From: Aquabacterium sp.
Lineage (GTDB): Bacteria; Pseudomonadota; Gammaproteobacteria; Burkholderiales; Burkholderiaceae_C
Length of the DNA: 64,000 nucleotides
Assembly (NCBI GenBank): GCA_023150345.1
Contig: JAKLLB010000007.1
Span: forward strand, 34,719-98,718
Direction: 5' to 3'
This document shows positions 31,502-61,721 of this stretch, piece by piece. The translations under genes were made by a program, and so were the position numbers. Positions within the stretch are counted from its first letter, which is position 1. Every line of letters begins with the position of its first letter. The notes under the pieces were generated by a model that was not told the origin of the DNA, ran no database searches, and saw only the letters and a list, made by a program, of their open reading frames with translations.

Positions 31502-31666
31502 GCAGCCCTTCCCGGATGACCAGGCGAAGGATTCTAGGAGGGCCACCCGCCTGAGCAACGCGTCACGGAATGTCCCTTCGACATCAGGGTTGCGCGCAAC
31601 GCGCAGTCCGCCCCCGGGGCCCAGAATCGTCGCGGTGTGAACTGCCTATGGCAACAGGAGTACGGC

Positions 31667-32782: not shown

Positions 32783-32864
32783 ATTCGTCGCGTCCTGGCT
32801 CGCGTCGGCCCCAGCGGGAGCGGGCGAAGTGATACATTTTTCGGCACTCCGGAGCAGTTTGCCG

Positions 32865-35258
32865 ATGACCCCAGACGACCCGCTGGAACGCCTGCGCAGG
32901 CTCGAGCGGGTCACGGCCGGCTCGCTGGATGGCTATTGGGAGCGCAACCTGCGCACCAACCGCAGCTGGTACTCGCCCAGCTTTCGGATGCTCTTCGGCT
33001 TCAGCGCAGACGAGTTGCCCGACGATCGCAACGTCGTCAACACCCGCATCCACCCCGAGGACTGGCCCAGCTTCGAGGCCGCCTACACGCGCGCCATCGC
33101 CCAGGTCGGCCGCTTCAGCTACGAGCTGCGCTACCGCGACGCACGCGGCCAGTGGCGCTGGGTGCGCGGGCGCGGCCAGGCCTGGCCGGGTGCAGACGGG
33201 CGTGCCGAGTTCATCACCGGGGCAGTCAGCGATATCCACGCCGAGAAGGTGGCGCAACAGTCGCTGGAAGAGGCCAATGGCCGCTTCGAGCGTGCCATCG
33301 AGGCCTCGGAGGAGGGCTTGTTCGAGCGCATCGAAGGCGAGCCCGCCATCCTGATGTCCGATCGCTACCTGGCGCTGATCGGCTTCGCGCGGCATGAGTT
33401 GCCTGCCGATCGCCGCTGGCTGCTGGAGCGCTTCCATCCGGATGACCTGGAGGAGTTCAATCGCGTCGTGACCGAGGGCGTGGCGGCCCTGGGGCGCTGG
33501 GAGGTGCGGTTTCGCTTCCGCCACGCCTGCGGCGACTACCGCTGGTACCGCCAGCGCGGCGTGGCCCGGCAGATGTCCGATGGCCGAGTGCGGGTGACCG
33601 GGATGATTGCCGATGTGCACGAGCTCACGCTGCAACGCCAGGAGCTCGAGCGCACGCGCAGCCAGCTCGAGACCCTGGTGGCCGAGCGCACCGCCCGCCT
33701 GGAGGCCGCGCTCTCGCTGGCCCGCGAGAGGCAGATCGAGGCCGAACGGGCGAACGCGGCCAAGTCGCGCTTTCTCGCGCACATGAGCCACGAGATCCGC
33801 ACGCCCTTGAACGGCGTGCTGGGGCTGCTCGACCTGGCACGACGCGCCGCGCCCACGCCCGACCTGCAGCGCTATCTCGACACCGCCAACCACTCCGGCC
33901 AGTCGTTGCTGCAGGTGATCAATGCGGTGCTCGATTTTTCGCGCATCGAGGCCGGGCGCCTGGAACTGCGCCCCGAGCCATTCGACCTGGCGGCGATCCT
34001 CGTCGACACCGTGCGCGCGGTGATGCCGCTGGTGCGCGAGCGCGCGCTGATGATGCTGTTCGACTGGGTCGAGGGCCCGAGCTGGGTGCTGGCCGACCCG
34101 GCCGCGGTGCGTCAGGTGATCACCAACCTCGTGGGCAACGCGGTGAAGTTCACCGAGCGCGGCCATGTCCAGGTGGTAGGTCGCAGCCAGTTGCAGGACG
34201 ACGGCCGGCTATTGGTGCAGGTGGTCGTCCGCGATACCGGACCTGGCATACCTGCCGAAGTGATGGGCCGCATCTTCGATGCCTTCGAGCAAGGCGACGC
34301 GAGCCTGGCCCGGCTGCACGGCGGCACCGGCCTGGGACTGTCGATCGCCCGGTCGCTGGCCGCGGCGATGGACGGCGACATCACCGCGAGCAGCCCGGCG
34401 GACGGCGGCTGCCAGTTCACGGTGACGCTGCGCCTGAAAGGAGCCGACGCCCCGGCCGTGCCCACACCCCGGCCCGACGGTGAGGCCTGGCTGGTGCATG
34501 CCACGCCCCTGGGTGCGCAGTGGCTGGAAAAGCGACTGGCCCGGTTGGGCTGGCGCACACGCGCACTGGGCACGGTCGATGAGTTGCTCGCCCTGGCCCG
34601 CGCCCAAACGCCGCAACTGGTGCTGCTGTCCGAATCCGGCCTGACCCATGACCTGGACCTGCGCCCCATACGGGCCGCGTTCCCCGACATCCCCATGCGA
34701 CTGCTGGTACGTCCGGACTGGCACTCTCCGGGACTGGAGACCGAGGCACAAGCGCTGGGCATCGGGACGGTCCTGACACCGGTCACACCGGTGGAGTTGC
34801 TGCGCCTGACCCAGGTGCAGGCGCCACCGAAGCGGGTGCGGCCAGAACCCGGCCTGCGCGCGCCCACCTGGCCGGCGGGCAGCCGGGTGCTCCTCGTCGA
34901 AGACAACCCGGTCAACCAACTCATCGGCCAGGAATTCCTGCGCGTGTTGGGTTGCACGGTGCGCACGGCCGGTGACGGCGCGCAGGCACTGGTGGACTGC
35001 GTGGACTTCAGGCCCCAACTGGTGCTGATGGACCTGCAGATGCCCGGCATGGATGGCCTGGAGGCCACGCGCGAGCTGCGCCGCATGCAGCAGGAAGATC
35101 GCTGGCCGGGCGCGCCCATCGTGGCGCTGACCGCCCATGCGGCGCCGGCCGACCACGCAGCCTGCCTGGCCGCCGGAATGGACGGCGTGCTCACCAAGCC
35201 GCTGGCGCTGGATGCGCTGTGGCGTGAACTCGACCGCAACCTTCGATCGGGACCGTGA
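32865..35258 (+). CDS. Soluble PAS-containing hybrid histidine kinase with two receiver modules
   Basis: 797 aa, start at ATG 32865 with GGAG at 32851-32854. Two PAS_3-type domains (about residues 10-130 and 140-260), a coiled linker (about 260-300), HisKA with FLAHMSHEIRTPLNG, then HATPase (NLVGNAVKFTERG, DTGPGIPAEV, GTGLGLSIARSL). A degenerate receiver-like segment follows (about 535-650; LVLLSESGL where the Asp would be). The canonical receiver then has VLLVEDNPVNQ, phospho-acceptor in LMDLQMPGMDG, and LTKPL. No membrane segment or signal peptide is visible. The 82-nt gap to the binding-protein gene suggests joint expression. No dedicated response regulator output is encoded nearby. Confidence 0.88.
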   Translation: MTPDDPLERLRRLERVTAGSLDGYWERNLRTNRSWYSPSFRMLFGFSADELPDDRNVVNTRIHPEDWPSFEAAYTRAIAQVGRFSYELRYRDARGQWRWVRGRGQAWPGADGRAEFITGAVSDIHAEKVAQQSLEEANGRFERAIEASEEGLFERIEGEPAILMSDRYLALIGFARHELPADRRWLLERFHPDDLEEFNRVVTEGVAALGRWEVRFRFRHACGDYRWYRQRGVARQMSDGRVRVTGMIADVHELTLQRQELERTRSQLETLVAERTARLEAALSLARERQIEAERANAAKSRFLAHMSHEIRTPLNGVLGLLDLARRAAPTPDLQRYLDTANHSGQSLLQVINAVLDFSRIEAGRLELRPEPFDLAAILVDTVRAVMPLVRERALMMLFDWVEGPSWVLADPAAVRQVITNLVGNAVKFTERGHVQVVGRSQLQDDGRLLVQVVVRDTGPGIPAEVMGRIFDAFEQGDASLARLHGGTGLGLSIARSLAAAMDGDITASSPADGGCQFTVTLRLKGADAPAVPTPRPDGEAWLVHATPLGAQWLEKRLARLGWRTRALGTVDELLALARAQTPQLVLLSESGLTHDLDLRPIRAAFPDIPMRLLVRPDWHSPGLETEAQALGIGTVLTPVTPVELLRLTQVQAPPKRVRPEPGLRAPTWPAGSRVLLVEDNPVNQLIGQEFLRVLGCTVRTAGDGAQALVDCVDFRPQLVLMDLQMPGMDGLEATRELRRMQQEDRWPGAPIVALTAHAAPADHAACLAAGMDGVLTKPLALDALWRELDRNLRSGP

Positions 35259-35311: not shown

Positions 35312-36172
35312 TCAGCCCAGCGCATCGGTCTCGCTGACGCCGCCCAGGAATCGCTCCACCAGTGCGTACTGCGCTGGCGTGTTCAGTGCCGGCGCGTGAC
35401 CGCAATCGGCGATCGTGGCCACCACGGCCTGGGGTCCGCGCGTGCGCATGGCCTCGGCCACCTCGGCGAGCAGCAGGTCGCTGTGCGCACCGCGCAGCAC
35501 CAGCACCGGGATGTCCAGGCTGTCCCACGCGTCCCATTGCAGGTAGTCATCGGGATGACAGGTGAACTGCCGCACCATGGCGGGGTCGTAGTGGGGCGTC
35601 ACGCGGCCGTCGGGCAGGCGGCGGGTGCTGGTTTCGGTCAGGCGGCGCCACTGCTCGTCGCTCAGCCATCCATAGGGGCGGTAAACGGTGCGGAAGTACT
35701 GCTCGAGCTCGGTGACGGTGGCAAACGCGTCGGGGTTGCCGGCGTACGAACAGATGCGCGCGACAGCGGCCGGCTCGAGCTCGGGGCCGATGTCGTTGAG
35801 CACGAGCCGGCGGATGCGCCCGCGCAGCAGCGTGGCGGCGCAGCGCAAGCCGATCGCCCCGCCCATCGACGTGCCCAGCCAATGGCAATGCCCGATGCCC
35901 AGTTGGTCGAGCAGCGACTCGGCCAGCCGCGCGTAGAAGGCCAGGCAGTACTCGTCGTCTGGCCGCGGGCTCCACTGCGAGAGGCCGCGGCCGATGGTGT
36001 CGGGGCAGATGACGCGCCAGCGTTGCGACAGATGGGCGGCAATGTCGTCCATGTCGCGCCCCGTGCGGGCCAGCCCGTGCCAGGCGATCACCACTTCGTC
36101 GTGCTGCTCGCCCCACTCGGTGTAGTGCAGCTCGCGCCCGACGCAGCTCAGGTAGCGGGAACGGTGGGTCAT
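35312..36172 (-). CDS. Alpha/beta hydrolase
   Basis: 286-aa cytoplasmic alpha/beta-fold hydrolase. The HGLART oxyanion region, nucleophile elbow GTSMGG, acid Asp in GAHSDLL and His in DCGHAPALN are all visible, so a full triad is likely. No signal peptide. It is the last gene of the minus-strand run (43-nt gap after the 3-hydroxybutyrate-oligomer hydrolase), which suggests it acts on an imported ester or oligomer, for example a hydroxyalkanoate dimer. The family is too broad to fix a substrate; an esterase or C-C hydrolase role is also possible. Confidence 0.85.
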   Translation of the reverse strand: MTHRSRYLSCVGRELHYTEWGEQHDEVVIAWHGLARTGRDMDDIAAHLSQRWRVICPDTIGRGLSQWSPRPDDEYCLAFYARLAESLLDQLGIGHCHWLGTSMGGAIGLRCAATLLRGRIRRLVLNDIGPELEPAAVARICSYAGNPDAFATVTELEQYFRTVYRPYGWLSDEQWRRLTETSTRRLPDGRVTPHYDPAMVRQFTCHPDDYLQWDAWDSLDIPVLVLRGAHSDLLLAEVAEAMRTRGPQAVVATIADCGHAPALNTPAQYALVERFLGGVSETDALG

Positions 36173-36215
36173 CGCGATGTCCTCGTCGTGGCGGCGCAGG
36201 CGCGACTGGCGTGCC

Positions 36216-38327
36216 TCAATCGGGCACGTTCATCGTCGAGCCGCTGAAGGTGATGGCATCGGCAGCGGCCGGTTGCCCGGCGATGGGCGGCACGTTGCCG
36301 GAAGTGAGCGCCGGCGCGGCGCCGGGGGTACCGCCACGGGGCAATGTGCGCACCACCTGGCTGGGAGGCAGTGCGGTGCCGTTCTTCAGGTGGGCCCACA
36401 TCGCGTCCAGCGCGCGATTGAGGTACAGGTGCAGCGGCACATAGCGGCTGTCGTAGCCCGGCAGCACCGCTTGCAGGCCAATGAACCCGTCGAAGTGCTG
36501 GGCGTTGGTCACCTCGACGTACGACAGTTTGCTGGCCGCACCTTCGACCACCTTGTTCAATGCGGTGTAGGGCCGCGAGGTGTGGTTGACCGGAAGCAGC
36601 GCATCGGAGCGGCCATGGACGATGATCGCCGGGCGGCCGCCCAGGTTCGCGCTGCGGCGGGTCTCGTCCAGGCCGGTCTGCAGTGCCTTGGCCGTGGCGT
36701 CACTGCCGGTGAGCAGGTTGCGCAGGCACAGGGCCCCGTCGAGGTTGAAGTCCTGCTTCAGCGTCGACGGCGAGAACGAAAAGAGATCGCGCAACGCGGC
36801 GCCGGGGCTCTGGTTGTTGATCAGTTGCACGCCGGCCGAAGGTGGCACGCCGTTGCCGGTGGCCGCCATCGTCGACAGGCCCGCGGCGAGCGCGGTCGGC
36901 ACGCCAGCGGCGGTGGTGGCACCGTAGCTGTAGCCACACAGGTGGTCCTTCACGCTGGCACGGGCCAGCGCGTTCGCAAACGTCACCGTGACCGCTGGCG
37001 CCACCTCGAATGCGGCGTGCGAGGCATGCAACGGGTTCGACTCGGCCTCCCAGCCGTAGTCGCGCAGCTTCTGCAGGGCCTCGTCGGCCTGCTCGGCCAA
37101 GGTCTCGGCAACCAGCAGGCCCTTGGCCTTGAGCGAGGCGCAGCGGTTGGCCGCGAAGGCCGCCACCACAAAGGCACCGCCGGGCGTGCCCGCCACCTGT
37201 GCCGACTGCGAGGCACAGCTCTGATACAGGTTGGCGTAGCTGGTGAAGTCGAAGAGCGTCTTGCCCACGGTCGTCACCGCGGTGCCGCCGCGACGGATGG
37301 TCACGCCCGGGTTGGCAGGCAGCTCGACCGCGGGCTCGGCCACCGCCACGCCGTCGATCAGGCCACCGCGATCGAGCTCCGCCGCCGCCAGCGCAGCACC
37401 GCCACCATTGGACACGCTCGAGGCGATCACCAGCGTGTTGGCTGGCGTCATCGCGCGTTCGCGGGCGCCATCGGGCAGTCGTGCGCCGTACTCCTGGTTG
37501 AGCACCCACAGCGCGAACTCCACCGCCTGCAGTGTGAAGGTGCCCCAGTCCTTCTCGGGGTTGCGCTGCGAGTGCGCATGCTTGAACGCGAAGCGGTTGG
37601 GCGTGGCGGCGTTGAGCGCCGCCAGATCGGCGGCCGGCAGCGCGGCGCGGAAGTGGGCGCTCGATCCGGCCGTCGCCGCTGCGGCCCGGGTGCCATCGAT
37701 CAGGGCCACGGTGTCACCGGCCAGGTCGTGGGGTGCACTGCCGGTGCCTTTGTCGGTGTAGGCCACCGCGCAGCCGCGCTTGAGGCCCCATTCGCCGGTG
37801 GAAATGGCTCCGTACACGCCGCGCGAGCCCGATGACGTGGCGGTGACGATGCAGGGCGCGGCAGGGTTGAAGGTGGCAGGCACCTGGACCATCAGGGTGA
37901 CGTTGCGCGCACCGCTGCCGTCGTCGCTGTAGGCGATGGCCTCCAGCCCGGCAATGCGGCCTTCGCCACTGCCGGCCACGCCATTGGCGTCGACGTTGGG
38001 GCCGTAGAACACGCCGTAGCCGCCACTCGCGCTGGTATCGACGATGGCGCGGTAGCTGCTGTAGATGGCCAGCCGGCGAATCTCGGTGGCCGTGGGCGTG
38101 GCCGACACCGCCGGCGCCGTGGCCAAGGCCAAGCCGGTGCGCCCGAGCCCCGCCGTGAGCAGGTCGTCGCTGGTGCCGTCGTAGCGGGTGGTCGTCACGG
38201 CGCCGACGTACGCCGGCTTGACATTGACCTCGATCGGGTCGCTGTCGAGCGCGCAGCCCGTCAACGCGAGGGCCGCGGCAGTGGCCGTCGCGCTGGTCAG
38301 GCGGGCACGCGGATGGTGTCGGTTCAT
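36216..38327 (-). CDS. D-(-)-3-hydroxybutyrate oligomer hydrolase (lipoprotein)
   Basis: 703 aa; hydrolyses oligomers of 3-hydroxybutyrate to monomers in poly-hydroxybutyrate breakdown. The N-terminus has a lipobox (ALALTGC), so it is predicted to be exported and lipid-anchored. Family segments seen: AIYSSYRAIVDTSASGGYG, ATSSGSRGVYGAI, the nucleophile region IASSVSNGGGAALAA, and NPGVTIRRGG; a C-terminal IIVHGRSDALLPVNHTSRPY holds candidate acid and LSYVEVTNAQHFD the His. It lies directly after livM (36-nt gap) in the same direction, which is unusual and points to uptake of its products by the ABC transporter. Confidence 0.88.
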   Translation of the reverse strand: MNRHHPRARLTSATATAAALALTGCALDSDPIEVNVKPAYVGAVTTTRYDGTSDDLLTAGLGRTGLALATAPAVSATPTATEIRRLAIYSSYRAIVDTSASGGYGVFYGPNVDANGVAGSGEGRIAGLEAIAYSDDGSGARNVTLMVQVPATFNPAAPCIVTATSSGSRGVYGAISTGEWGLKRGCAVAYTDKGTGSAPHDLAGDTVALIDGTRAAAATAGSSAHFRAALPAADLAALNAATPNRFAFKHAHSQRNPEKDWGTFTLQAVEFALWVLNQEYGARLPDGARERAMTPANTLVIASSVSNGGGAALAAAELDRGGLIDGVAVAEPAVELPANPGVTIRRGGTAVTTVGKTLFDFTSYANLYQSCASQSAQVAGTPGGAFVVAAFAANRCASLKAKGLLVAETLAEQADEALQKLRDYGWEAESNPLHASHAAFEVAPAVTVTFANALARASVKDHLCGYSYGATTAAGVPTALAAGLSTMAATGNGVPPSAGVQLINNQSPGAALRDLFSFSPSTLKQDFNLDGALCLRNLLTGSDATAKALQTGLDETRRSANLGGRPAIIVHGRSDALLPVNHTSRPYTALNKVVEGAASKLSYVEVTNAQHFDGFIGLQAVLPGYDSRYVPLHLYLNRALDAMWAHLKNGTALPPSQVVRTLPRGGTPGAAPALTSGNVPPIAGQPAAADAITFSGSTMNVPD

Positions 38328-38363
38328 TGCACGGGTCTCCTCGTCGGGTTTGCAGCGTTTCGG

Positions 38364-39440
38364 TCAGGGACGGGCCCCAGCCACGCGCAGTGCGCGCAGC
38401 CGGCCGACCACGCCGGCCGGAAAGTGATAGACAGATAGCACGAACAGCACGCCCAGCCACAGCAGCCAGCGGTCGGGCGAGACGAACTGCGACAGCACGG
38501 GAACGCCTTCGAGCGCCGCGCCGGCAACCTTGAGCAGGTCCTGCAGGTAGTTCTGCGCCAGCATGAACAACACGCCGCCGAGCACGGCGCCATACATCGT
38601 GCCCATGCCGCCGATGACGACGATGAGCAGGATGTCGAGCATGATCTCGAACGACAGCGTGGTGTCGGGACCGGTGTAGCGCAGCCACAGCGCCAGCAGC
38701 GCGCCGGCCAATGTGGCCCCCATGGCGGCCAGGACATTGCTCAAGGTGCGGAAGACGACTGTTCGAAAGCCGATGGCCTCGGCACGGAAGTCGTTCTCGC
38801 GTATGGCCTGCAGCACGCGCCCGAACGGGGAGTTGACGATGCGCAGCAGCACCAGGACGGCCACCAGCACGACGGTGAACAGCAGGTAGTAGGTGAACAG
38901 CTTGCCGTCCACCGCGACGCCCAGCAGCGGCTGTTCGAGCGGTTCGAACGACGGGCTCAGCCACTCGGGGTTGCGGAACGTGAGCCCATCTTCGCCGCCA
39001 GTGAACTCGGACAACTGCGAGGCCAGCGTCAGGAATGCCGAGGCCACCGCCAGCGTGATCATCGCGAAGAAGATCGCCTTCACTCTCAGCGAGAACAGGC
39101 CGATCACCAGCGACAGCGCCAGCGACACCGCCATCGCTGCGGCCAGCCCCACCGCCACCGCGCCCCAGCCCGCCCCCATCCGGGTGCTGGCGATGGCCAC
39201 GCCGTACGCGCCGATGCCGAAGAACATGGTGTGCGCGAAACTGACGATGCCGGTGTAGCCCAGCAGCAGGTCGTAGCTGGCCACCAGCAGGATGAACACC
39301 AGCGTCTTGGCTGCCACCCCCAGCGCCTTGCTGCCGGGAAACAGGAACGGCGCCAACGCCAGCGCCAGGACGATGGCCACCAGTGCCAGCGCCAGCCAGC
39401 GGCTGCGCGGCAGATCGTGCGACAAGAGACGGTTCAGCAT
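38364..39440 (-). CDS. livM: Liv-type ABC transporter permease LivM
   Basis: Inner-membrane permease of the branched-chain-amino-acid (HAAT) class, 358 aa, about nine hydrophobic helices. The family segments YDLLLGYTGIVSFAHTMFFG and the EAA-like loop ENDFRAEAIGFRTVVFRT are clear, with GGMGTMYGAVLGG near the end. It pairs with LivH (64 nt upstream). The true substrate need not be an amino acid; the adjacent hydroxybutyrate-oligomer hydrolase suggests short hydroxyacids. Confidence 0.92.
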   Translation of the reverse strand: MLNRLLSHDLPRSRWLALALVAIVLALALAPFLFPGSKALGVAAKTLVFILLVASYDLLLGYTGIVSFAHTMFFGIGAYGVAIASTRMGAGWGAVAVGLAAAMAVSLALSLVIGLFSLRVKAIFFAMITLAVASAFLTLASQLSEFTGGEDGLTFRNPEWLSPSFEPLEQPLLGVAVDGKLFTYYLLFTVVLVAVLVLLRIVNSPFGRVLQAIRENDFRAEAIGFRTVVFRTLSNVLAAMGATLAGALLALWLRYTGPDTTLSFEIMLDILLIVVIGGMGTMYGAVLGGVLFMLAQNYLQDLLKVAGAALEGVPVLSQFVSPDRWLLWLGVLFVLSVYHFPAGVVGRLRALRVAGARP

Positions 39441-39504
39441 CGGGTGCTACCTCGGAGACTGGCGCAGGCAGGCAGACAGGCCGACGGTGTTCATGCCCGG
39501 TGCC

Positions 39505-40533
39505 TCACCGATTGGTCACCGGATACAGGCCCTGCGGGCGCCACAGCAGGATGGCCACCATCAACCCGATGTTGGAGAACAGGGCCACCTTGGGCGCCAG
39601 GTAGCCGGTGTAGTTGGCCAGCACGCCCACCATCAGCGCGCCGATGAAGCAACCCAGCGTAGAACCCAGCCCACCGATGATGATGACGATGAAGATCAGC
39701 ACATTGACCTGTGCGCCGATCTGCGGCACCACGTTCTGCTGGAACAACCCCCACATGACGCCACCCAGGCCGGCCAGTGCCGAACCTGCGACGAACACGC
39801 CCACGAACAGCCGGCGGATGCGGTAACCCAGCGACTCGACCATCTCGCGGTCCTGGACGCCAGCGCGTATCAGCAGGCCGATCTTGGTGCGGTTGAGGGT
39901 GTAGACCAGCAGCGCGAACACCACCAGGCCGATGACCATGGCCAGCACCCGGTACCGCTCGATGGCCGCGTCACCGATGAACCAGGCCCCGCGTACCACG
40001 TCGGGCAGCGGCAACGGAATCTGCTGCGGGCCCCAGATCACCTTGATGATCTCCTCGCCGATGATCATGCCGCCCATGGTGATGAGGATCTGCTTGAGAT
40101 GCTGGCCGTACACCGGACGCACCATCACGCGCTCGAACGCCAGGCCCACCGCGCCGGCCAAGGTCATCGCAGCGAGCATGGCCAGGAACATCGCACCCAG
40201 TTGCGCCGCACCGCCCTGCCAGCCCGAGGCCGCCCCCATCACGCTGGTGGCCACGAACGCGCCCAGCGCGATGAACACGCCATGCCCGAAGTTCAGCACG
40301 TCCATCAGCCCGAACACCAGGGTCAGGCCGGAGGCGGTGATGAAGACGATCAGGCCCATCGCCAGACCGGCCACCGTGAGCGTGAGCCAGGTGCTGGGGC
40401 TGCCGACCAGCGGCAGGGCCAGCGCGGCGAGGGCCACGAGCAGCGCCAGGGGCTTCCAGTCGAAGCGCGATCGCGGCACGGCTTGCGCGTCGGTCGCGCC
40501 CGCGGTCGTGGCCGCGGCGGGGCTGGCGTTCAT
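39505..40533 (-). CDS. livH: Liv-type ABC transporter permease LivH
   Basis: 342 aa; start at ATG complementary to 40531-40533 (MNASPAAATTAGATD), overlapping the livF stop by 4 nt. About eight membrane helices. Diagnostic segments: TASGLTLVFGLMDVLNFGHG, LITMGGMIIGEEIIKVIWG, the EAA loop DREMVESLGYRIRRLFVG and GGLGSTLGCFIGAL. The N-terminal 30 residues are Ala/Thr-rich and cytoplasmic. Longer upstream readings overlap livF and are not conserved. Confidence 0.92.
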   Translation of the reverse strand: MNASPAAATTAGATDAQAVPRSRFDWKPLALLVALAALALPLVGSPSTWLTLTVAGLAMGLIVFITASGLTLVFGLMDVLNFGHGVFIALGAFVATSVMGAASGWQGGAAQLGAMFLAMLAAMTLAGAVGLAFERVMVRPVYGQHLKQILITMGGMIIGEEIIKVIWGPQQIPLPLPDVVRGAWFIGDAAIERYRVLAMVIGLVVFALLVYTLNRTKIGLLIRAGVQDREMVESLGYRIRRLFVGVFVAGSALAGLGGVMWGLFQQNVVPQIGAQVNVLIFIVIIIGGLGSTLGCFIGALMVGVLANYTGYLAPKVALFSNIGLMVAILLWRPQGLYPVTNR

Positions 40534-41270
40534 TGGTGGGCTCCCAGCGACAGGCCCAGCAGGCGCTGCTGCAGGGCATCGTCTTCGGCCAGCTCGCGCA
40601 TGGCGCCGCGGTGCACGATGCGGCCGTCGTCCATCACCGCCACGCTGTCGCCCAGCGCCCGGGCCATCGTGAAGTTCTGCTCCACCAGCACGATGGTCGT
40701 GCGCTGGCGTTTCAGCTCGCTGAATGCGGTGATCAGGTTCTGGATGATCGACGGGGCCAGGCCTTTGCTGGGTTCGTCGATCAGGATGAGCGCGCGCGGC
40801 TCGCAGATGGCGCGTGCCACGGCGAGCATCTGCTTCTGCCCGCCCGAGAGCTTGCCTGCCGGATAGAGCCAGAACTTGCGCAGCGCAGGGAACAGCCCGA
40901 AGATCCAGTCGAGACGGGCACCGTCGAGTTCGCCGGCGTGGCGCGCGGCGCGCGCGGCCAGCACCATGTTCTCCTGCACGGTGAGATCGCTGAAGATGCC
41001 CATGTTCTCCGGCACATAGGCGATGCCGCGTGCGGCGATGTCGGGCGTGGCCAGACCGTCGAGCCGTTCGCCGCGGAACCGCAGCTCGCCCGCACTGGCT
41101 TTCCACAGGCCCATGATGGTGCGCAGCGTCGTGCTCTTGCCGGCGCCATTGCGCCCCAGCAGCATCGTGACCTCGCCCTCGGGCACCGCGAAATCCACGC
41201 CATGCAGGATGTGATAGGCGCCGATGTGCGTGTGCACACCGCGAAGGTCGAGCAGGGGCTTGTGGGTCAT
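40530..41270 (-). CDS. livF: Liv-type ABC transporter ATPase LivF
   Basis: 246-aa cytoplasmic ATPase. Walker A GRNGAGKST, signature LSGGQKQMLAVARAI, Walker B LILIDEPSKGLAP, His switch VLVEQNF; YVPENMGIFSDLTVQENM is typical of LivF. It starts 4 nt after livG and its stop overlaps the livH start (ATGA), so livG-livF-livH are tightly coupled. Forms a heterodimeric motor with LivG. Confidence 0.94.
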   Translation of the reverse strand: MTHKPLLDLRGVHTHIGAYHILHGVDFAVPEGEVTMLLGRNGAGKSTTLRTIMGLWKASAGELRFRGERLDGLATPDIAARGIAYVPENMGIFSDLTVQENMVLAARAARHAGELDGARLDWIFGLFPALRKFWLYPAGKLSGGQKQMLAVARAICEPRALILIDEPSKGLAPSIIQNLITAFSELKRQRTTIVLVEQNFTMARALGDSVAVMDDGRIVHRGAMRELAEDDALQQRLLGLSLGAHQ

Positions 41271-41274
41271 GGCC

Positions 41275-42069
41275 TCATGCTCCGGTCTGGGACTGGCCGG
41301 GTTGCGGCGCCGCGCCGAGGTAAGCCTGCTGCACCACCGGCGAGGCGATCACCTCGGCCGGAGGTCCGTCGGCTACCAGCGCCCCGTTGTGCAGCACGAC
41401 GATGCGATCGGACAGCTCGCGCACCACGTCCATCTTGTGCTCGACCAGCAAGATGGTGCAGTCGGGGCGGGCCTTGATCGAGCGGATCAGGTCGAGCACG
41501 ACGGGCACCTCGTCCACGCTCATGCCTGCCGTGGGCTCGTCGAACATGAACACGCGCGGCTGCAAGGCAATCAGCATCGCCACTTCGAGCTTGCGCTGGT
41601 CGCCGTGGGGCAGGCTGCTGGCATGCGCGTCGTGGCGATCGCCCAGGCGCACCTGCTCGAGGATGGCCTGTGCCTCGTCCACCCAGGCGCGGCGATCGAG
41701 CCACACGCGCCAGAAGTCCAGGCCGCCGAAGGGTCCGCCCCTGCCGCGACCGGATTCGCGCGCCTGGATGGCCAGGCGCACGTTCTCGCGCACGCTCAGG
41801 TTGGGAAACAGCTGCGTGAGCTGGAATGCGCGCCCCAGCCCACGGTGCGTGCGCACCGGCGCCGGCAGCGCCGTGAGCTCGTGCCCGTCCAGCCACACCT
41901 GGCCCTCGCTGGCGGGCAGCTGGCCGGAGATGAGGTTGAAGTAGGTGGTCTTGCCCGCGCCGTTGGGGCCGACGATGGACGTGAGCGTGCCCGGCTCGAA
42001 TCGGCACGACACGTGGTCCACCGCCACGTGGCCGCCGAAACGGATGGTCAGATCGCGGGTTTCGAGCAC
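41275..42069 (-). CDS. livG: Liv-type ABC transporter ATPase LivG
   Basis: 264-aa ATPase partner of LivF. Walker A GPNGAGKTT, LivG-type GRAFQLTQLFPNLSVRENV, Walker B VFMFDEPTAGMS, His in LLVEHKMDVV. The signature is LPHGDQRKLEVAML instead of the usual LSHGEQR; the Ser-to-Pro and Glu-to-Asp changes are worth noting but the surrounding motif is intact. The gene follows the binding-protein gene after 98 nt, a gap typical where binding protein is made in excess. Confidence 0.93.
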   Translation of the reverse strand: MLETRDLTIRFGGHVAVDHVSCRFEPGTLTSIVGPNGAGKTTYFNLISGQLPASEGQVWLDGHELTALPAPVRTHRGLGRAFQLTQLFPNLSVRENVRLAIQARESGRGRGGPFGGLDFWRVWLDRRAWVDEAQAILEQVRLGDRHDAHASSLPHGDQRKLEVAMLIALQPRVFMFDEPTAGMSVDEVPVVLDLIRSIKARPDCTILLVEHKMDVVRELSDRIVVLHNGALVADGPPAEVIASPVVQQAYLGAAPQPGQSQTGA

Positions 42070-42167
42070 AGGCGTGCCGGTGTTCCTGGGGTGCAGGGCA
42101 GCCGCCTGCGGCGCCGTTGACGGGCGCGCAGGGCGAGGCCGGTGAAGTCGTATGCGTCTTTAACGTG

Positions 42168-43361
42168 CTAGCGCTTGTTGCGGATCGGCACGTTCATCTC
42201 TTCCGGCTTGATCTCGCGCACGAGTTCGGGCACGCCCCAGGCGAAGGCCGGGTCGGCCTTGATCTTGAAGTGATACATGCTCTGCATCGCCTGATGGTCG
42301 TCCTTGCGGAAGGTCATGCGGCCCTTGGGTGTCTCGAAGCTCATGCCTTCCATCGTGGCCATGAGCTTGTTCGTCGCTGCGTCGCCCTGGGTCTTCTTCA
42401 GTGCCTCGACCACGGCGATGGCCGCGCTCATGCCGCCGGCGGTGAAGAAGTCGGGCGGCGCCTTGAACTGCTTGTAGTGGTTGGCCACCAGCCACTCGTT
42501 CACCGGGTTCTTTGGAATGCCGAAGTAGTAGTAGGTGGCGCCTTCCATGCCCGGGAAGTTCTTGTAGGCGGCCATGGCCGGCAGGATGTTGCCGCCGGTG
42601 GCGATCTCGATGCCATAGCGCTTGAGGTCCATGTCGGCGATCTTGAACGGATTGCCGGCGCCGGCCCAGATGATGAAGATCACCTTGCGGCCCGGCTGAT
42701 CCTTGAGCTTGTCGATCAGGCGCTGCGCGCCGGCGGTGAAGTCCGTCGTCGTGGTGGGCAGGTACTCCTCGTGGATGATCTTCGCGGTCTTGAGGGCATC
42801 CTTGAACGCCTTCACGCCGTCACGACCGAAGGCGTAGTCCTGCGCCAGCGTGGCAACGGAGACGCCAGCCTTGTCCAATGCCACCGCGTTGCTGATCGCG
42901 TCCTGGCTGGAATTTCGACCCGTGCGGAAGATGTACTTGTTCCACTTGTCACCGGTGATCGAGTCGGCCACCGCCGGTTCCACCAGCAGGATCTTCTTCG
43001 ATTCCTCGGCCACCGGCAGCATGGCCAGCGCGACGCCGCTGCTCGTCGGGCCGATGGCGATATCGGCCTTGTCGTCGTTATAGGCGGCGGCCAGCAGGCT
43101 CTTGCCCAGGTCCGGCTTGCCCTGGTCATCCTTCTCGATGACGACGATCTTCTTGCCCGCCACCTGCATCGTTCCGCCAGTGGCGTAGTCCAGTCCCATC
43201 ATGAGCCCGGTCTGGGTCTGCTTGCCATACGCTTCCAGCGGACCGGTCTTGCTGTAGACATGGGCGATGCGGATTTCACCCTGCGCCCAGACGGCGGGGG
43301 AGGCCAACGCGGCTGCCAGCGCACCGGCCAGCAGGGTGGTGGGGAACAGGCGGCGCTTCAT
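42168..43361 (-). CDS. Periplasmic substrate-binding protein of the Liv-type operon
   Basis: 397 aa; start at ATG complementary to 43359-43361 (MKRRLFPTTLLAGALAAALA, signal peptide cleaved near VWAQG) with AGGAG 8-10 nt upstream. Peripla_BP_6 fold: IRIAHVYSKTGPLEAYGKQT, VVIEKDDQGKPDLGKSLLAA, ADIAIGPTSSGVALAMLPVA, TLAQDYAFGRDGVKAFKDAL. First gene of the livGFHM-hydrolase operon, behind a sigma54 promoter. The binding-site residues do not fix a ligand; the operon contents favour a 3-hydroxybutyrate-type acid over amino acids. An in-frame extension to 43517 lacks a signal and crosses the promoter. Confidence 0.9.
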   Translation of the reverse strand: MKRRLFPTTLLAGALAAALASPAVWAQGEIRIAHVYSKTGPLEAYGKQTQTGLMMGLDYATGGTMQVAGKKIVVIEKDDQGKPDLGKSLLAAAYNDDKADIAIGPTSSGVALAMLPVAEESKKILLVEPAVADSITGDKWNKYIFRTGRNSSQDAISNAVALDKAGVSVATLAQDYAFGRDGVKAFKDALKTAKIIHEEYLPTTTTDFTAGAQRLIDKLKDQPGRKVIFIIWAGAGNPFKIADMDLKRYGIEIATGGNILPAMAAYKNFPGMEGATYYYFGIPKNPVNEWLVANHYKQFKAPPDFFTAGGMSAAIAVVEALKKTQGDAATNKLMATMEGMSFETPKGRMTFRKDDHQAMQSMYHFKIKADPAFAWGVPELVREIKPEEMNVPIRNKR

Positions 43362-43424
43362 GGGTGTGTCTCCTGGGTGTAGGGGCCGCAGCCGTGCGGC
43401 TGCCAACAGAACGCGGTAGCCATT

Positions 43425-43439
43425 GCAAGCGTTGTGCCA
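43425..43439 (-). promoter_or_regulatory. Sigma54 (-24/-12) promoter of the ABC-hydrolase operon
   Basis: Read on the minus strand: TGGCAC-AACGC-TTGC followed by A, matching the TGGCAC-N5-TTGC consensus in every conserved base with the invariant GG and GC correctly spaced. The predicted transcription start is near 43414, about 52 nt before the binding-protein ATG. Confidence 0.9.
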
Positions 43440-43556
43440 TGCGCACCAGATCAGTGCAAACCCTGACAAAGCCGCCAACCGCACGGCGAAACCGCGGAAA
43501 CGCCTCATGAGATGCATGAATTTCGTACACTCTTCGTGCGGCCGAATGTGTTTTCT

Positions 43557-43583
43557 TCAGACAGTTCTACAGGAACTGTCTGA
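43557..43583. promoter_or_regulatory. Perfect palindrome, likely enhancer (UAS) for the sigma54 activator
   Basis: TCAGACAGTTC, spacer TACAG, GAACTGTCTGA: perfect 11-bp arms. Its centre is about 156 bp upstream of the predicted sigma54 start, the usual range for activator binding, and 29 bp beyond the activator gene stop. On the plus strand TTTT follows, but no plus-strand gene ends there, so a terminator role is unlikely. Confidence 0.8.
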
Positions 43584-43611
43584 TTTTCAGTCAGTGTCGC
43601 GAAACGCCCGA

Positions 43612-45141
43612 TCAGACCGGGCGCCCTCTGGTGCCCAGTTCCGGGTACCGTGCGAGCCGATCGTAGAAGGCCGCGCGCGACATCCGAAGCAGCCGCGCCG
43701 CGGCCAGGCGGTTGCCTCCGGTGGCCTGCAACGCCTGCGCCATGGCCTGGCGCTCGAGTTCCGCCACCTGCTCCGGCAGCGGACGCACCGCGATCGACGG
43801 TTCGCTGCGTCGTTGCGGCTCGGCCGCCCGCTGTGCTGGCTCGGGTGAGTCGGCTGCATCGGTCGACGCTCGAGGCAACCCCAGTGACGCTACTCCTGTC
43901 AACGCGCCCTCGAAGTGCCGCGCATCGAGCAACAGATCGTCGGTCATCAGCGCGGCCTGCTCGAGCAGGTTGCGCAGCTCGCGGATGTTGCCCGGCCAGG
44001 GCTGCCGCGCCAGCAGGTCCAGGGCAGCGGCGGTCAGGCTCTTGTGCGGCAGGCCGCCACGGCGCGCGATGTCATCGAGCAGTGCGTCGGCCAGGGCTTC
44101 CAGGTCGGCGAGGCGCTCGCGCAGGGCGGGCAGGCGGATGGGCAGGACATTGAGCCGGTAGAACAAGTCGGCGCGGAACCGGCCATCGGCCACCATGGCG
44201 GGCAGGTCGCGGCTGGTGGCGGCGATCACACGCACATCCACCTTCACCACCTGGTTGCTTCCCAGTGGCTCGACTTCCTGCTCCTGCAGCGCACGCAACA
44301 GCTTGGCCTGCAGGGCCAGCGGCATGTCGCCGATCTCGTCGAGGAACAGCGTGCCACCGTCGGCCAGCTTGAACTTCCCCTCGCGGCCACGGCGATCGGC
44401 CCCGGTATAGGCGCCGGGCGCAACGCCGAAGAACTCGGCCTCCAGCAAGGTGTCCGGCACGGCCGCGATGTTGACGCCCACGAACGCATGCCCGGCGCGC
44501 GCCGAGGCCGCGTGGATCGCATGCGCCAGCAACTCCTTGCCCGTGCCGGTCTCGCCCAGCAGCAGCACCGTGGACTCGGTGGCCGCGACCCGGCGCGCCT
44601 GGCGCTTGACCTCCAGCGCCGCGGGGCTCGCGCCGATGTAGCCCGCGATGGTGTACTTGGGCCGCCGCTGCGCGGCCAGCTGGCGCTGCGCGTCCTCGAG
44701 CTCGCGCTGCAGGCGACCGAACTTGGTCATCAGCGGCTGCATGGTGCTCTCGGGATGGTCCATCAGCACCATGCCCAGTGCCCCGATCACCCGCCCCTGT
44801 GGGTCGCGCAGCGGCACCCGGCTGACGAGGAAGGTGCCGGCCTTGTTGGTGAGCAGGTCGACCATGATGGGCCGGCCTGTATCCACGACCTGGGCCATCA
44901 GCGTATTGGGCACGACCTCCTCGACCCGTCGCCCGACGAAGTCCGACTCCCCTTCGAAACCCAGCGCCGGCAGGAAGCGTTTGTACCCCTCGCTGATCCA
45001 GACGATGCGGTGCTCGTGGTCGACCACCATCATGCCCTGCACGGTCTGCGCGTAGAGATCGAACATCGACTGCGCCGCCAGCTTGAGCAGGCTGTCGGCA
45101 TCCTGCGGCAAATTCGACGACGTATGCGAGATCAGGGCCAT
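43612..45141 (-). CDS. PAS-containing sigma54-dependent transcriptional activator
   Basis: Enhancer-binding protein of 509 aa, start at ATG complementary to 45139-45141 (MALISHTSSNLPQDADS). N-terminal PAS sensor (about residues 20-125; QGMMVVDHEHRIVWISEGYK), AAA+ domain with Walker A GETGTGKE, the sigma54-contact loop as GAYTGA (tyrosine variant of GAFTGA), Walker B GGTLFLDEIGDM, then WPGNIRELRNLLEQ and a Fis-type helix-turn-helix (NRLAAARLLRMSRAAFYDRL). It lies immediately upstream of, and in line with, the sigma54-driven transporter operon, so it is the likely activator; the PAS ligand is unknown. Confidence 0.93.
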   Translation of the reverse strand: MALISHTSSNLPQDADSLLKLAAQSMFDLYAQTVQGMMVVDHEHRIVWISEGYKRFLPALGFEGESDFVGRRVEEVVPNTLMAQVVDTGRPIMVDLLTNKAGTFLVSRVPLRDPQGRVIGALGMVLMDHPESTMQPLMTKFGRLQRELEDAQRQLAAQRRPKYTIAGYIGASPAALEVKRQARRVAATESTVLLLGETGTGKELLAHAIHAASARAGHAFVGVNIAAVPDTLLEAEFFGVAPGAYTGADRRGREGKFKLADGGTLFLDEIGDMPLALQAKLLRALQEQEVEPLGSNQVVKVDVRVIAATSRDLPAMVADGRFRADLFYRLNVLPIRLPALRERLADLEALADALLDDIARRGGLPHKSLTAAALDLLARQPWPGNIRELRNLLEQAALMTDDLLLDARHFEGALTGVASLGLPRASTDAADSPEPAQRAAEPQRRSEPSIAVRPLPEQVAELERQAMAQALQATGGNRLAAARLLRMSRAAFYDRLARYPELGTRGRPV

Positions 45142-45234: not shown

Positions 45235-48198
45235 ATGCCCGACGCGACTCCACCGACCGAAGGCCCGCCGCCGCGCGCGACTGGCGGCGCCGCGGCGCAG
45301 GGGCTGTCGCCACCGGCGCCGGACGCCGCGCTCGCGGCGCGCTGGCAGTTGGACCGTGCCGCGGCCGCAGCTCTGCTGCGCTTCTCCATATTCGCCAACG
45401 TGCTGGGGCTGCCGCTGCCGCTGCTCTATGGCGGACTCACCCCGGCCCGGCGCCTGTGGATGATGGTTCTCCTGGTGGCCATGCTGGGCATGCAAGTCAC
45501 GGTCAGTCGCCTGCTCGACCGCCGCCCGCACGCATTGACGGTGACCACGCTGTGCATGCTCAGCGTGATGTTGGCGATGATGCAGTTCGCGATGGGCGTC
45601 GGCGTGCAGGGCCAGGCGCAGGGCTTGGCCGCGCTGCTGGTGGTGCTGGCCGGCGTGCTGGCCGGCACGCGTGCAGCGTGGGGCCTGGCGGCGTTGAACC
45701 TGGCATGCGTCGCGCTCCTGTACGGGGTCGAAATGGCGGGCGTGATCCCTGGGCGCACGCTCCTGGCCCAGCAACCGACGATCAACCGCGCGATCACGCT
45801 GTCGTTGGTCATCACTTGCGGCCTGCTGGCGGCGCTGGTGCTGGCGCGGCAGTACCTGCACGCTCTGGACGAAGCGGCCCTGCAGCGCGAGCGGCTGGAC
45901 GGGATGCTGCGCATCGGCACCGACTGGATCTGGGAGCAAGATGCCCTGGGTCGATTCACGTTCGTGTCGCCCTCGTTCACCCAGCGCACCGGCCTGGCAC
46001 CAGACCGCGTGTTGGGTCGTGCACTGTGGGACCTGCCGGACGTGCAGGCGCCCGAGCCAGGCTGGCAGGCGCTGCGCCAGGCCTATGACGCCCGGCATCC
46101 CCTGCGCGACGAGCTGCTGCGCATGCAAGCCGCCGATGGTCGCCGTTTGCTGGTGGCCGTGACCGCCGAACCCTGGTACTCGCCCACCGGCAAGCTGCTG
46201 GGCTGGCGCGGCGCGGGCCATGAGGTGACACGGCTGATGGAGGAGGCGCAGCGTCGGCGCGAGTCCGAAGACGTCCTGTTGCGCATCTTCGACACCACGC
46301 CCGACGGCTTGGCGGTGAGCACGCTCGACGAAGGCCGCTTCCTGATGGTGAATCGGCACTTCGCCGCCATGCTCGGCCGCACGCCCGAGGACATCGTCGG
46401 CCGTACCTCGGTTGAAATCGGCTACTGGCGCGACGCCGCCGAGCGCGAACCGTTCCGGTCGGAACTTGGCGCCCGCGGCCAAACGCAGTTGCGCGCGCAC
46501 CGCCTGTACACCGCCACCGGCGCCGAGGTGGCGGTGCTGACCTCGGCCGCACTCATCATGTTGCACGAGCGCGCGCATGTGGTCACGGTGGCGCGCGACG
46601 TGACCGAAGTCGAGCGCGAGCGACACGAGATCGGCAGTGTGCTGGAGCACGCTCCCTTGGGCATCGCACTGGCCCGCGACCATGTGTTGCGGCGGGTGAA
46701 CCCGGCGTTCGAGCAGTTGCTCGGCTACCCGCCGGGAACGCTGGCCGGGCGCGCTGCACATGAGATCTTCTCGCGGGAGCGCGACCACGCCACTTACCTG
46801 TCCATCGCGGCGCAGGCACTGGAACCCGGTGGGGTGGAACGCGAGCTGCGCTGGCCGCAGCCCGACGGGGTCATGCGCGAAGTCTGGCTGCGCGGCGTCC
46901 CGGTCGACCCTCAGCGACCCGGCGACGGCGTGGTGTGGCTGGCACAAGACGTCGCCGAGCGCCGCCGCGCGCAGAGGCAACTTGCCGAGGCCAAGGAGCA
47001 GGCGGAGTCGGCCAGCCGTGCCAAGAGCGCATTCCTCGCAACGATGAGCCACGAGATGCGCACGCCGCTCAACGGCACGCTGGGCATGATCCGTTTGGCC
47101 CGCGGCGAGACCGCCGATGCCACGCGCCGCGACGAGTACCTGCGCCATGCCGAAGCCAGTGGCCAGGCGCTGGCACAGATCATCTCGGACGTGCTGGACT
47201 TGTCGCGCGTCGAGGCCGGACGTCTGCAGTTGGAGCACACCCGCTTCGACCTGCACGCGCTGGCGCAGTCGGTGCATGCCGTGCACCTGCCGCAAGCGCA
47301 GGACCAGGGCCTTGCATTCACTCTGGTCATCGAGCCCGGCGTGCCGCGACTGGTGGACGGCGACCCGGTGCGCGTGCGCCAGATCCTGGTGAACTATGTC
47401 GGAAATGCGCTGAAGTTCACCCCGTCGGGCTCGGTGGAACTGCGCCTGGCGCCATGCGATCGTCCCGCCGACGCACCCGCCGGCACGGTGGGCGTGCGCC
47501 TCAGCGTGACCGACACCGGCATCGGCATCGACGACGCGACCCGCGCACGGCTGTTCCAGCCCTTCGAGCAGGCCGACACTTCGACCACCCGCCGCTTCGG
47601 GGGCACCGGACTGGGGCTCTCGATCTGCCGCGAGCTGGCGCGGCTGATGGGCGGGCGCGTCGACGTGCACAGCACGCCCGGCCAGGGCAGCGAGTTCATC
47701 GCCGAAGTGCCGCTGATGCCGTCAACCGGCGCGCCGGATGCCACCTCGCCCGTCGCGAGCGACACGCCATTGGTCGGCCGCCGCATCCTCGTGGCCGAAG
47801 ATCACCCGGTGAACATGATCATTGCCGCCGAGACGCTGCGGCGCTGGGGCGCCGAAGTGGACGAAGCCACCGACGGCGCCTTGGCGTGCGAGCAGGTGCA
47901 GCGCGCCCGCGATGAGGGCCGCCCCCACCACGCCGTGCTGATGGACATGCACATGCCGGTTCTCAACGGCATCGAGGCCACGCGGCGCCTGCGCCAGAAG
48001 GTGCCGGCGAACGAGCTGCCCATCGTCGCGTTGACCGCGGCCGCCCTGGCCAGCGAGCAGCAGCAGGCGCTGAACGCCGGCATGAACGACTTCGTCACCA
48101 AGCCCATCGATCCGGCGCAGTTGCTGCTCGCGCTGCAACGGGCCTGGAACTCGGGCGACTCTCCGATGAATGCGGGCGATCCCCGGAGCGCCACCTGA
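45235..48198 (+). CDS. Membrane-bound multi-PAS hybrid histidine kinase
   Basis: 987 aa, start at ATG 45235. About five to six N-terminal membrane helices (about residues 45-205; for example LWMMVLLVAMLGMQV and ITLSLVITCGLLAALVLA). Three PAS domains follow (starts at about 220, 345 and 465). HisKA has FLATMSHEMRTPLNG, HATPase has NYVGNALKFTPSG, DTGIGIDDATRA and GTGLGLSICREL, and the receiver has ILVAEDHPVNM, MDMHMPVLNG and FVTKPID. It is divergent from the sigma54 activator with 93 nt between; a functional link is possible but not shown, as the activator has a PAS domain rather than a receiver. Confidence 0.9.
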   Translation: MPDATPPTEGPPPRATGGAAAQGLSPPAPDAALAARWQLDRAAAAALLRFSIFANVLGLPLPLLYGGLTPARRLWMMVLLVAMLGMQVTVSRLLDRRPHALTVTTLCMLSVMLAMMQFAMGVGVQGQAQGLAALLVVLAGVLAGTRAAWGLAALNLACVALLYGVEMAGVIPGRTLLAQQPTINRAITLSLVITCGLLAALVLARQYLHALDEAALQRERLDGMLRIGTDWIWEQDALGRFTFVSPSFTQRTGLAPDRVLGRALWDLPDVQAPEPGWQALRQAYDARHPLRDELLRMQAADGRRLLVAVTAEPWYSPTGKLLGWRGAGHEVTRLMEEAQRRRESEDVLLRIFDTTPDGLAVSTLDEGRFLMVNRHFAAMLGRTPEDIVGRTSVEIGYWRDAAEREPFRSELGARGQTQLRAHRLYTATGAEVAVLTSAALIMLHERAHVVTVARDVTEVERERHEIGSVLEHAPLGIALARDHVLRRVNPAFEQLLGYPPGTLAGRAAHEIFSRERDHATYLSIAAQALEPGGVERELRWPQPDGVMREVWLRGVPVDPQRPGDGVVWLAQDVAERRRAQRQLAEAKEQAESASRAKSAFLATMSHEMRTPLNGTLGMIRLARGETADATRRDEYLRHAEASGQALAQIISDVLDLSRVEAGRLQLEHTRFDLHALAQSVHAVHLPQAQDQGLAFTLVIEPGVPRLVDGDPVRVRQILVNYVGNALKFTPSGSVELRLAPCDRPADAPAGTVGVRLSVTDTGIGIDDATRARLFQPFEQADTSTTRRFGGTGLGLSICRELARLMGGRVDVHSTPGQGSEFIAEVPLMPSTGAPDATSPVASDTPLVGRRILVAEDHPVNMIIAAETLRRWGAEVDEATDGALACEQVQRARDEGRPHHAVLMDMHMPVLNGIEATRRLRQKVPANELPIVALTAAALASEQQQALNAGMNDFVTKPIDPAQLLLALQRAWNSGDSPMNAGDPRSAT

Positions 48199-61525: not shown

Positions 61526-61648
61526 GCTGTACCTCCTGTGCGTGGCGGCCCGCATGCGCATGTCACAGATGAGCAACAACCGGGTCGCGCGGCGGGATTC
61601 TGCCTGTAACCCGCCCGGAATCATCCAGTCACATCCCTTATACAAAAC

Positions 61649-61662
61649 ACACGTTCGTGTGC
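61649..61662. promoter_or_regulatory. Inverted repeat in divergent promoter region
   Basis: CACACG-TT-CGTGTG in the 196-nt region between the binding-lipoprotein gene and the HD-GYP gene, next to TATAC sequences; a second palindrome GCGTATACGC lies at 61692-61701. Both are candidate operators; no regulator is assigned. Confidence 0.4.
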
Positions 61663-61721
61663 TCATTCACGACTGCGCCCCGGTCGACATTGCGTATACG
61701 CGCATCCCGTGGAGCCCGAAC

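Follow-up and report, generated by a model that had tools for sequence, protein, structure and literature searches.

A sigma54-linked Liv-type transporter operon in Aquabacterium and its family: a candidate importer of polyhydroxybutyrate breakdown products

Introduction

The bacterial entry route of polyhydroxybutyrate (PHB) breakdown products is little known. Here we describe a locus in a 64,000-nucleotide stretch of DNA from Aquabacterium sp. (GenBank assembly GCA_023150345.1, contig JAKLLB010000007.1; this whole stretch is called the window), in which a Liv-type ATP-binding cassette (ABC) transporter is encoded together with a 3-hydroxybutyrate (3HB)-oligomer hydrolase, a small alpha/beta hydrolase (abH) and a sigma54-dependent activator. 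We consider it probable, at roughly 0.7, that the operon is an uptake line for PHB products rather than an amino-acid importer.

Several described systems resemble parts of this locus. Ruegeria pomeroyi takes up 3HB through hbtABC, a three-gene system of the tripartite ATP-independent periplasmic (TRAP) type, and HbuT of Bacillus subtilis, presumed to take up 3HB, does not to our knowledge form an ABC operon. In Pseudomonas, the targets of HbcR are the 3HB oxidation genes. The marine hbtABC system, which moves the monomer, was called in 2023 the only confirmed bacterial 3HB uptake system (PMC10130141), and a passage of a 2021 review gives the transporter of soil bacteria for exogenous 3HB as not known, the only presumed one being HbuT, a membrane transporter by the title cited there (PMC8000602). 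HbcR is described as a sigma54 activator answering (R)-3HB (PMC10482368), and the activator of the window is likened to it by description only, as a member of the sigma54 activator class. PhaY1 and PhaY2 of Ralstonia/Cupriavidus are 3HB-oligomer hydrolases, the activity for which the family PF10605 is named; they are described as intracellular (PMC2864759), whereas the window copy has a lipobox. The LivKHMGF/HAAT branched-chain importers share with our locus the subunit make-up of a PF13458 binding protein, two permeases and two ATPases, and differ in that the set is tied here to an esterase and to PHB hydrolases. A sequence-only reading of the window knew of no hydroxyalkanoate importer of the Liv class, and no Liv-type importer of 3HB or PHB oligomers is described in the titles, abstracts and passages covered by a search of open-access literature; subscription papers lay mostly outside the search and a prior description is possible.

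Gene content of the locus

The locus comprises eight genes, all on the minus strand, at the positions that the sequence-only reading gave, as an open-reading-frame check and Pfam confirmed. Reading leftwards from 45141, these are the activator gene (43612..45141; 509 aa), a 250-bp gap with the promoter, the gene of the periplasmic substrate-binding protein (SBP; 42168..43361; PF13458, 397 aa with a signal peptide recognized by eye), the livG-type (41275..42069) and livF-type (40530..41270) ATPase genes, the livH-type (39505..40533) and livM-type (38364..39440) permease genes, the PF10605 oligomer hydrolase gene (36216..38327; 703 aa) and abH (35312..36172; 286 aa). The seven head-to-tail genes behind the promoter carry the identities first proposed for them, with two start sites corrected: livH starts at the ATG at 40533, which overlaps the livF stop as ATGA, and the SBP most likely starts at the ATG at 43361 (MKRRLF) rather than at 43517. 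With two BPD_transp_2 permeases, two ABC ATPases and one PF13458 binding protein, the transporter has the composition of the Liv/HAAT structural family. The intergenic gaps measure 98 bp between the SBP gene and livG, 4 bp between livG and livF, 64 bp between livH and livM, 36 bp between livM and the hydrolase gene and 43 bp between the latter and abH; the tight packing of livG, livF and livH, together with the ATGA overlap, leads to the expectation of a single transcript.

The oligomer hydrolase matches the full-length PF10605 profile with 1038.5 bits over residues 23-703 and carries the S-x-S-N-G nucleophile motif as SVSNG. Its N-terminus, MNRHHPRARLTSATATAAALALTGC, reads by eye as a lipoprotein signal with an LTGC lipobox, and the protein is accordingly a predicted lipoprotein; the lipobox was matched in at least 21 of 51 operon copies of the hydrolase, many of the other 30 translations beginning within the gene. 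Inspection by eye shows no signal peptide in abH, which would be cytosolic. The abH residues S102, D232 and H259, which belong to the positions with at least 97% conservation across 93 sequences (that of the window among them), are presumed to form the catalytic triad.

A conserved core of activator, transporter and abH

The linkage of these genes was surveyed in 299 genomes of the family of the window organism (whose own genome is G000). Presence was scored at 1e-100 for the SBP, 1e-75 for abH and 1e-40 for the extracellular PHB depolymerase, and presence at the level of single loci depends on the identity thresholds chosen. All 99 places with a full or near-full oligomer hydrolase were fetched with their flanks, as were 40 hand-picked from 100 listed loci in which the SBP has no hydrolase linked to it; among these family-sample loci (L049-L147, L150-L189), 89 from 89 distinct genomes have the SBP. 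A further set of named loci (L190-L269) comes from assemblies that partly overlap the family sample, so the two sets are never summed, and one set of 164 regions used below mixes both.

The SBP was found in 160 of the 299 genomes and abH in 161. They occur together in 148 genomes, the SBP alone in 12, abH alone in 13 and neither in 126, and abH is thus the near-obligate partner of the transporter. Fisher tests of co-occurrence ignore relatedness; weight was therefore put on linkage and not on p-values. Linkage counted from SBP places gives lower bounds, since places were listed for 148 of the 160 SBP genomes. The full operon order, activator-SBP-[depolymerase]-G-F-H-M-[oligomer hydrolase]-[SBP2]-abH, in which the bracketed genes are optional, is conserved in the family, and in whole loci with the hydrolase the SBP is 76-91% identical to that of the window. 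The order SBP-G-F-H-M-abH was present in all 40 fetched SBP loci without a linked hydrolase, six of which have the depolymerase and 34 neither external hydrolase. Where at least 5 kb could be seen beyond livM, abH followed in 85 of the 86 loci from the family sample and in 45 of the 47 named ones; of the two named loci scored without it, L264 has abH from the last base of livM, where a distance rule excluded it, and L195 is a true miss. The conserved core consists of activator, SBP, livGFHM and abH, and the family-wide linkage and co-occurrence counts rule out chance adjacency of the operon genes. Acidovorax delafieldii DSM 64 carries every part of the operon, Roseateles, Ideonella and Variovorax carry subsets, and the nearest named locus, L190, belongs to a Burkholderiaceae metagenome-assembled genome with an SBP 98% identical to that of the window.

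Across the phylum, the SBP was detected at 1e-90 in 23 of 398 genomes. In seven more distant loci that were read, SBP-G-F-H-M was kept in all; L274 and L272 contain abH (58% and 35%, respectively), L271 a different gene resembling alpha/beta hydrolases and L270 an activator match (52%).

Optional PHB hydrolase modules

Of the 299 family genomes, 102 have a PF10605 match, and in 93 of these the copy is full or near-full. The oligomer hydrolase and the livM-type permease of this system share a locus in 52 of the 99 hydrolase places, which represent 52 genomes and 34 genus codes, and the SBP and full-length hydrolase lie within 12 kb of each other in at least 49 of the 61 genomes that have both. 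Among the 12 unlinked cases, the hydrolase stands beside a different Liv-type transporter in six (G034, G075, G077, G143, G212 and G258), and in G142 the two genes are apparently split by contig ends. Besides the 61 genomes with both genes, 99 have the SBP alone, 32 the hydrolase alone and 107 neither. This rules out the hydrolase as the obligate partner of the transporter, and it is an optional insert in the operon.

A second insert, the extracellular PHB depolymerase, stands between the SBP gene and livG in 25 of the 89 loci, and 32 of the 44 strong copies (1e-40) in the 299 genomes lie directly beside the SBP gene. In the one relative whose depolymerase was tested, the enzyme scores 28.6 bits against PF10503 (cut-off 23), with an fn3 domain and, by eye, a GLSSGG motif. 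The neighbourhood survey that the sequence-only reading had proposed thus supports the link to PHB, through the conserved linkage of the hydrolase and the depolymerase insert. The pairing of importer and oligomer hydrolase put forward in that reading stands as a shared locus in many genera, with the correction that the hydrolase is optional and that the near-obligate partner is abH.

In many loci a third insert, SBP2, encodes a second PF13458-type protein between the hydrolase and abH. It comes without a transporter of its own (L050, L051, L053, L055, L063, L072, L109, L122 and others) and could allow a single translocator to accept more ligands. By parsimony on quick trees, with no control for chance, the SBP tree shows 21 changes of state for the hydrolase module and 15 for the depolymerase, and the hydrolase tree shows 12 changes in operon membership; this suggests gain and loss of modules around a constant core. 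Within the 89 loci, an association of the depolymerase module with the hydrolase module was dropped as evidence, because of biased sampling and a non-significant independent-pairs test (median p 0.25).

In eight loci (L060, L066, L083, L090, L094, L103, L113 and L126) the neighbour of the hydrolase, at a distance of up to about 3.2 kb, is a different Liv-type transporter, with ATPases 38-44% like those of the window and, in the six loci where it was read, the order G-F-SBP-H-M; L126 additionally has SBP2 and a depolymerase gene nearby. These loci look like an independent pairing of a PHB hydrolase with a Liv transporter.

Promoter, putative operator and activator

The sigma54 promoter claimed ahead of the operon was recovered as a perfect -24/-12 element, TGGCACAACGCTTGCA (43424..43439, minus strand), which reads TGGCACN5TTGCA and is the only match without mismatch in the 64 kb. 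Matches with up to two mismatches are at chance level (42 observed, 40.2 expected in the window), so the weight is carried by the perfect site. The element is conserved in relatives: ahead of the SBP gene, 66 of the 89 loci match at least 9 of its 10 positions, compared with 23 of 1780 single-base shuffles.

A 17-bp dyad, TGACTGAAAATCAGACA (43577..43593), lies about 140 bp further upstream than the -24 element and is a putative binding site of the activator. Of 89 upstream regions, each from a different genome, 72 match its pattern, TGTCTGAAnTTCAGACA, at no fewer than 12 of its 16 positions, compared with 9 of 1780 single-base shuffles; the sequences used for scoring were those in which the dyad had been discovered. 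Including the named loci gives 133 of 164 regions, some assemblies being counted twice. Upstream of the SBP gene is also the sole exact place of the pattern TGNCTGAANNTCAGNCA in the 4.58 Mb genome, other matches carrying one mismatch, and the dyad resembles a local operator dedicated to the adjoining activator. A perfect 11-bp inverted repeat at 43557-43583, TCAGACAGTTC-5-GAACTGTCTGA, was discarded as a candidate site, having been seen in none of the 14 other loci inspected; it overlaps the conserved dyad.

The gene next in line had been read as a sigma54 activator, and Pfam finds in its product an AAA domain (225.6 bits), a Fis-type helix-turn-helix (HTH_8) and a PAS domain; the GAFTGA loop reads GAYTGA. 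The features of a sigma54 enhancer-binding activator are accordingly present, namely AAA with a GAFTGA-type loop, helix-turn-helix, a cognate -24/-12 element and a putative upstream site. Where at least 3 kb were visible, the activator gene precedes the SBP gene in 52 of the 68 loci from the family sample and in 57 of the 68 named ones, and hence is not universal. Relatives of the activator with 50-54% identity in other families stand, in three of four loci, beside genes that resemble TRAP transporters by eye.

Transporter class and ligand clues

All subunits score far below the NCBIfam equivalog or subfamily cut-offs of the Liv proteins (LivG 183/362, LivF 156/441, LivH 76/379, LivM 77/366 and binding protein 55/477 bits) and also miss those of the Urt proteins, UrtE being nearest (208.5 vs 285.8). 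An AlphaFold2 model of the SBP (pLDDT 85.5) was matched by Foldseek best to 3n0x, then mostly to binders of aromatic acids, and then to urea, leucine and amide binders. The nearest structures with a ligand named in the title hold aromatic carboxylates. These are the SBPs 4ey3, 4evq, 4evs and 4f06 of R. palustris, which belong to the same transporter class and bind carboxylates without an amino group; they are 22-28% identical to the SBP of the window, whose neighbours are PHB hydrolases. RPA4397 (3n0x) and 3nnd, both from Rhodopseudomonas palustris, are closer, with TM-scores of 0.87 and 0.93 and 72% identity for 3n0x, and as judged from the model very probably belong to the same subfamily as the SBP. 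No ligand paper for 3n0x or 3nnd was found in the literature searched, and the main text of an R. palustris screen contains no words beginning with RPA43, butyr or acetoacet (PMC3223731).

The SBP was also aligned with LivJ and LivK, using only these and subfamily rows; identity is about 25% and the register uncertain. The residue corresponding to LivJ T102 is Ala in two alignments and a gap in the third. LivJ E226 faces Ile (the invariant I259) in two of three alignments, and in the remaining one, which contains mistranslated rows, it faces Glu in another register. T102, E226 and S79 are the residues that we take to hold the amino acid in LivJ. The loss of T102 and the probable loss of E226 argue against an alpha-amino acid as ligand, without identifying the ligand.

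Proposed function and alternatives

From gene order, conservation, promoter, dyad, domains and co-occurrence we infer what is carried, how and in which direction, what the enzymes cut and what signal is sensed. PHB would be cut outside the cell by the extracellular depolymerase, which in many relatives is encoded in the same operon. In the window genome (94% complete), no depolymerase was found at 1e-40 with the enzyme of a relative or above the PF10503 cut-off, provisionally; this genome thus lacks the complete set of a PHB-degradation operon, and its owner may scavenge oligomers freed by others. The envelope-anchored PF10605 lipoprotein, the single PF10605 gene product of this genome, would trim the oligomers, the SBP would capture short 3HB oligo-esters, perhaps also the monomer, and LivHMGF would import them at the expense of ATP. 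In the cytosol abH would split the esters to (R)-3HB, and a 3HB dehydrogenase, for which the genome has a match over the family cut-off, would oxidize it to acetoacetate. A match to the intracellular PHB depolymerase family PF06850 is also present, in two pieces. The PAS domain of the activator may sense 3HB or a related carboxylate, upon which the activator would bind the dyad and switch the promoter on.

The most far-reaching version of this explanation, held tentatively and at somewhat under even odds, is that polyester oligomers, such as 3HB dimers and short chains, enter the cell intact through an ABC system with a sigma54 switch and operator of its own and are hydrolysed in the cytosol. 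If the operon does serve PHB uptake, oligomer import has about an even chance, monomer import is a lesser possibility, and the remainder falls to another short hydroxyalkanoate. That a cytosolic hydrolase almost always accompanies the transporter favours import of an ester. The sequence-only reading had envisaged oligomers cut outside, acids imported and hydrolysis finished inside; its PHB link holds, and because the cytosolic esterase is almost constant, oligo-ester import fits at least as well as import of acids. It is unlikely that the transporter imports the 3HB monomer (or acetoacetate), with ester cutting finished outside and abH clearing leaked esters or serving internal PHB turnover. 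The PF10605 and depolymerase modules could indeed supply monomer outside, and the system described in the 2023 text as the sole confirmed bacterial 3HB importer moves the monomer; however, abH is almost inseparable from the transporter, and its presence also where the operon has no external hydrolase (34 of 40 loci) fits an imported ester better.

A real, if doubtful, competitor is an importer that takes short hydroxy- or ester-carboxylates in general (from plant or microbial esters or other polyesters) and was repeatedly recruited for PHB by insertion of the depolymerase and oligomer-hydrolase genes. In the family sample, where hydrolase loci are over-represented, 34 of 87 loci have the core without either module, and the 15 and 21 state changes of the two modules, with the reservations given above, would accord with such recruitment; yet both modules are steps of one pathway and were repeatedly placed inside the same operon. 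An amino-acid importer is very improbable. The family architecture speaks for it, as do two points that weigh against a PHB role: the LivJ serine that holds the carboxylate, S79, is kept as S108, and the closest solved relative, 3n0x, is titled a (branched-chain) amino-acid transporter. Against it stand the linkage conserved in 34 genus codes, the LivJ residues not kept (T102, and E226 in two of three alignments) and scores well under the Liv and Urt cut-offs. Further observations count against the proposed uptake line for PHB products. Since the full-length oligomer hydrolase is missing from 99 and the depolymerase (1e-40) from 116 of the 160 SBP genomes, the core needs some use without them. 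At the thresholds used, 36 of the 99 hydrolase places have no other operon gene, six of them adjoining the other Liv type, and 12 of the 44 strong depolymerase places lie away from the SBP gene, five in genomes without the SBP. In five loci the hydrolase is kept with the activator (L108, L116) or abH (L110, L112, L132) and the transporter is gone, which makes it dispensable there; L132 retains short stretches resembling the SBP (56 aa) and LivM (51 aa), as if the transporter had been deleted. Finally, genes resembling acyl-CoA ligase and enoyl-CoA hydratase by eye adjoin the distant relatives L271 and L275, as a general importer might have it, and these neighbourhoods suggest a wider carboxylate or ester clientele.

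Neighbouring genes in the window

A second PF13458 binding-protein gene of the window (31637-32782, plus strand) overlaps a gene for a PAS hybrid histidine kinase (32754-35258, plus strand), and the pair is convergent with abH. The binding protein encoded there resembles SBP2 at about 36% and recurs with 60-76% identity in L062, L071, L078, L084, L091, L152 and L168; together with it, the kinase is possibly a ligand-sensing kinase for the substrate of the operon. On the other side, divergent from the activator gene, a look-alike of PAS hybrid sensor kinases (45235-48198, plus strand; by eye) shows good conservation in L190 alone, the nearest relative (89%). A third PF13458 gene lies at 60338-61666 (minus strand), and the genome has 18 PF13458 matches.

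Conclusions

The operon constitutes a testable candidate for an importer of 3HB or PHB products in 160 of the 299 sampled family genomes, and gives a likely function to a group of transporters of the amino-acid class. Its putative operator and activator are offered as a starting point for a possible 3HB or PHB sensor, and the system bears on the consumption of bioplastic in soil and water. If true, the import of oligomers would be the polyester counterpart of oligosaccharide and oligopeptide uptake, present in about half of the sampled genomes of the family.

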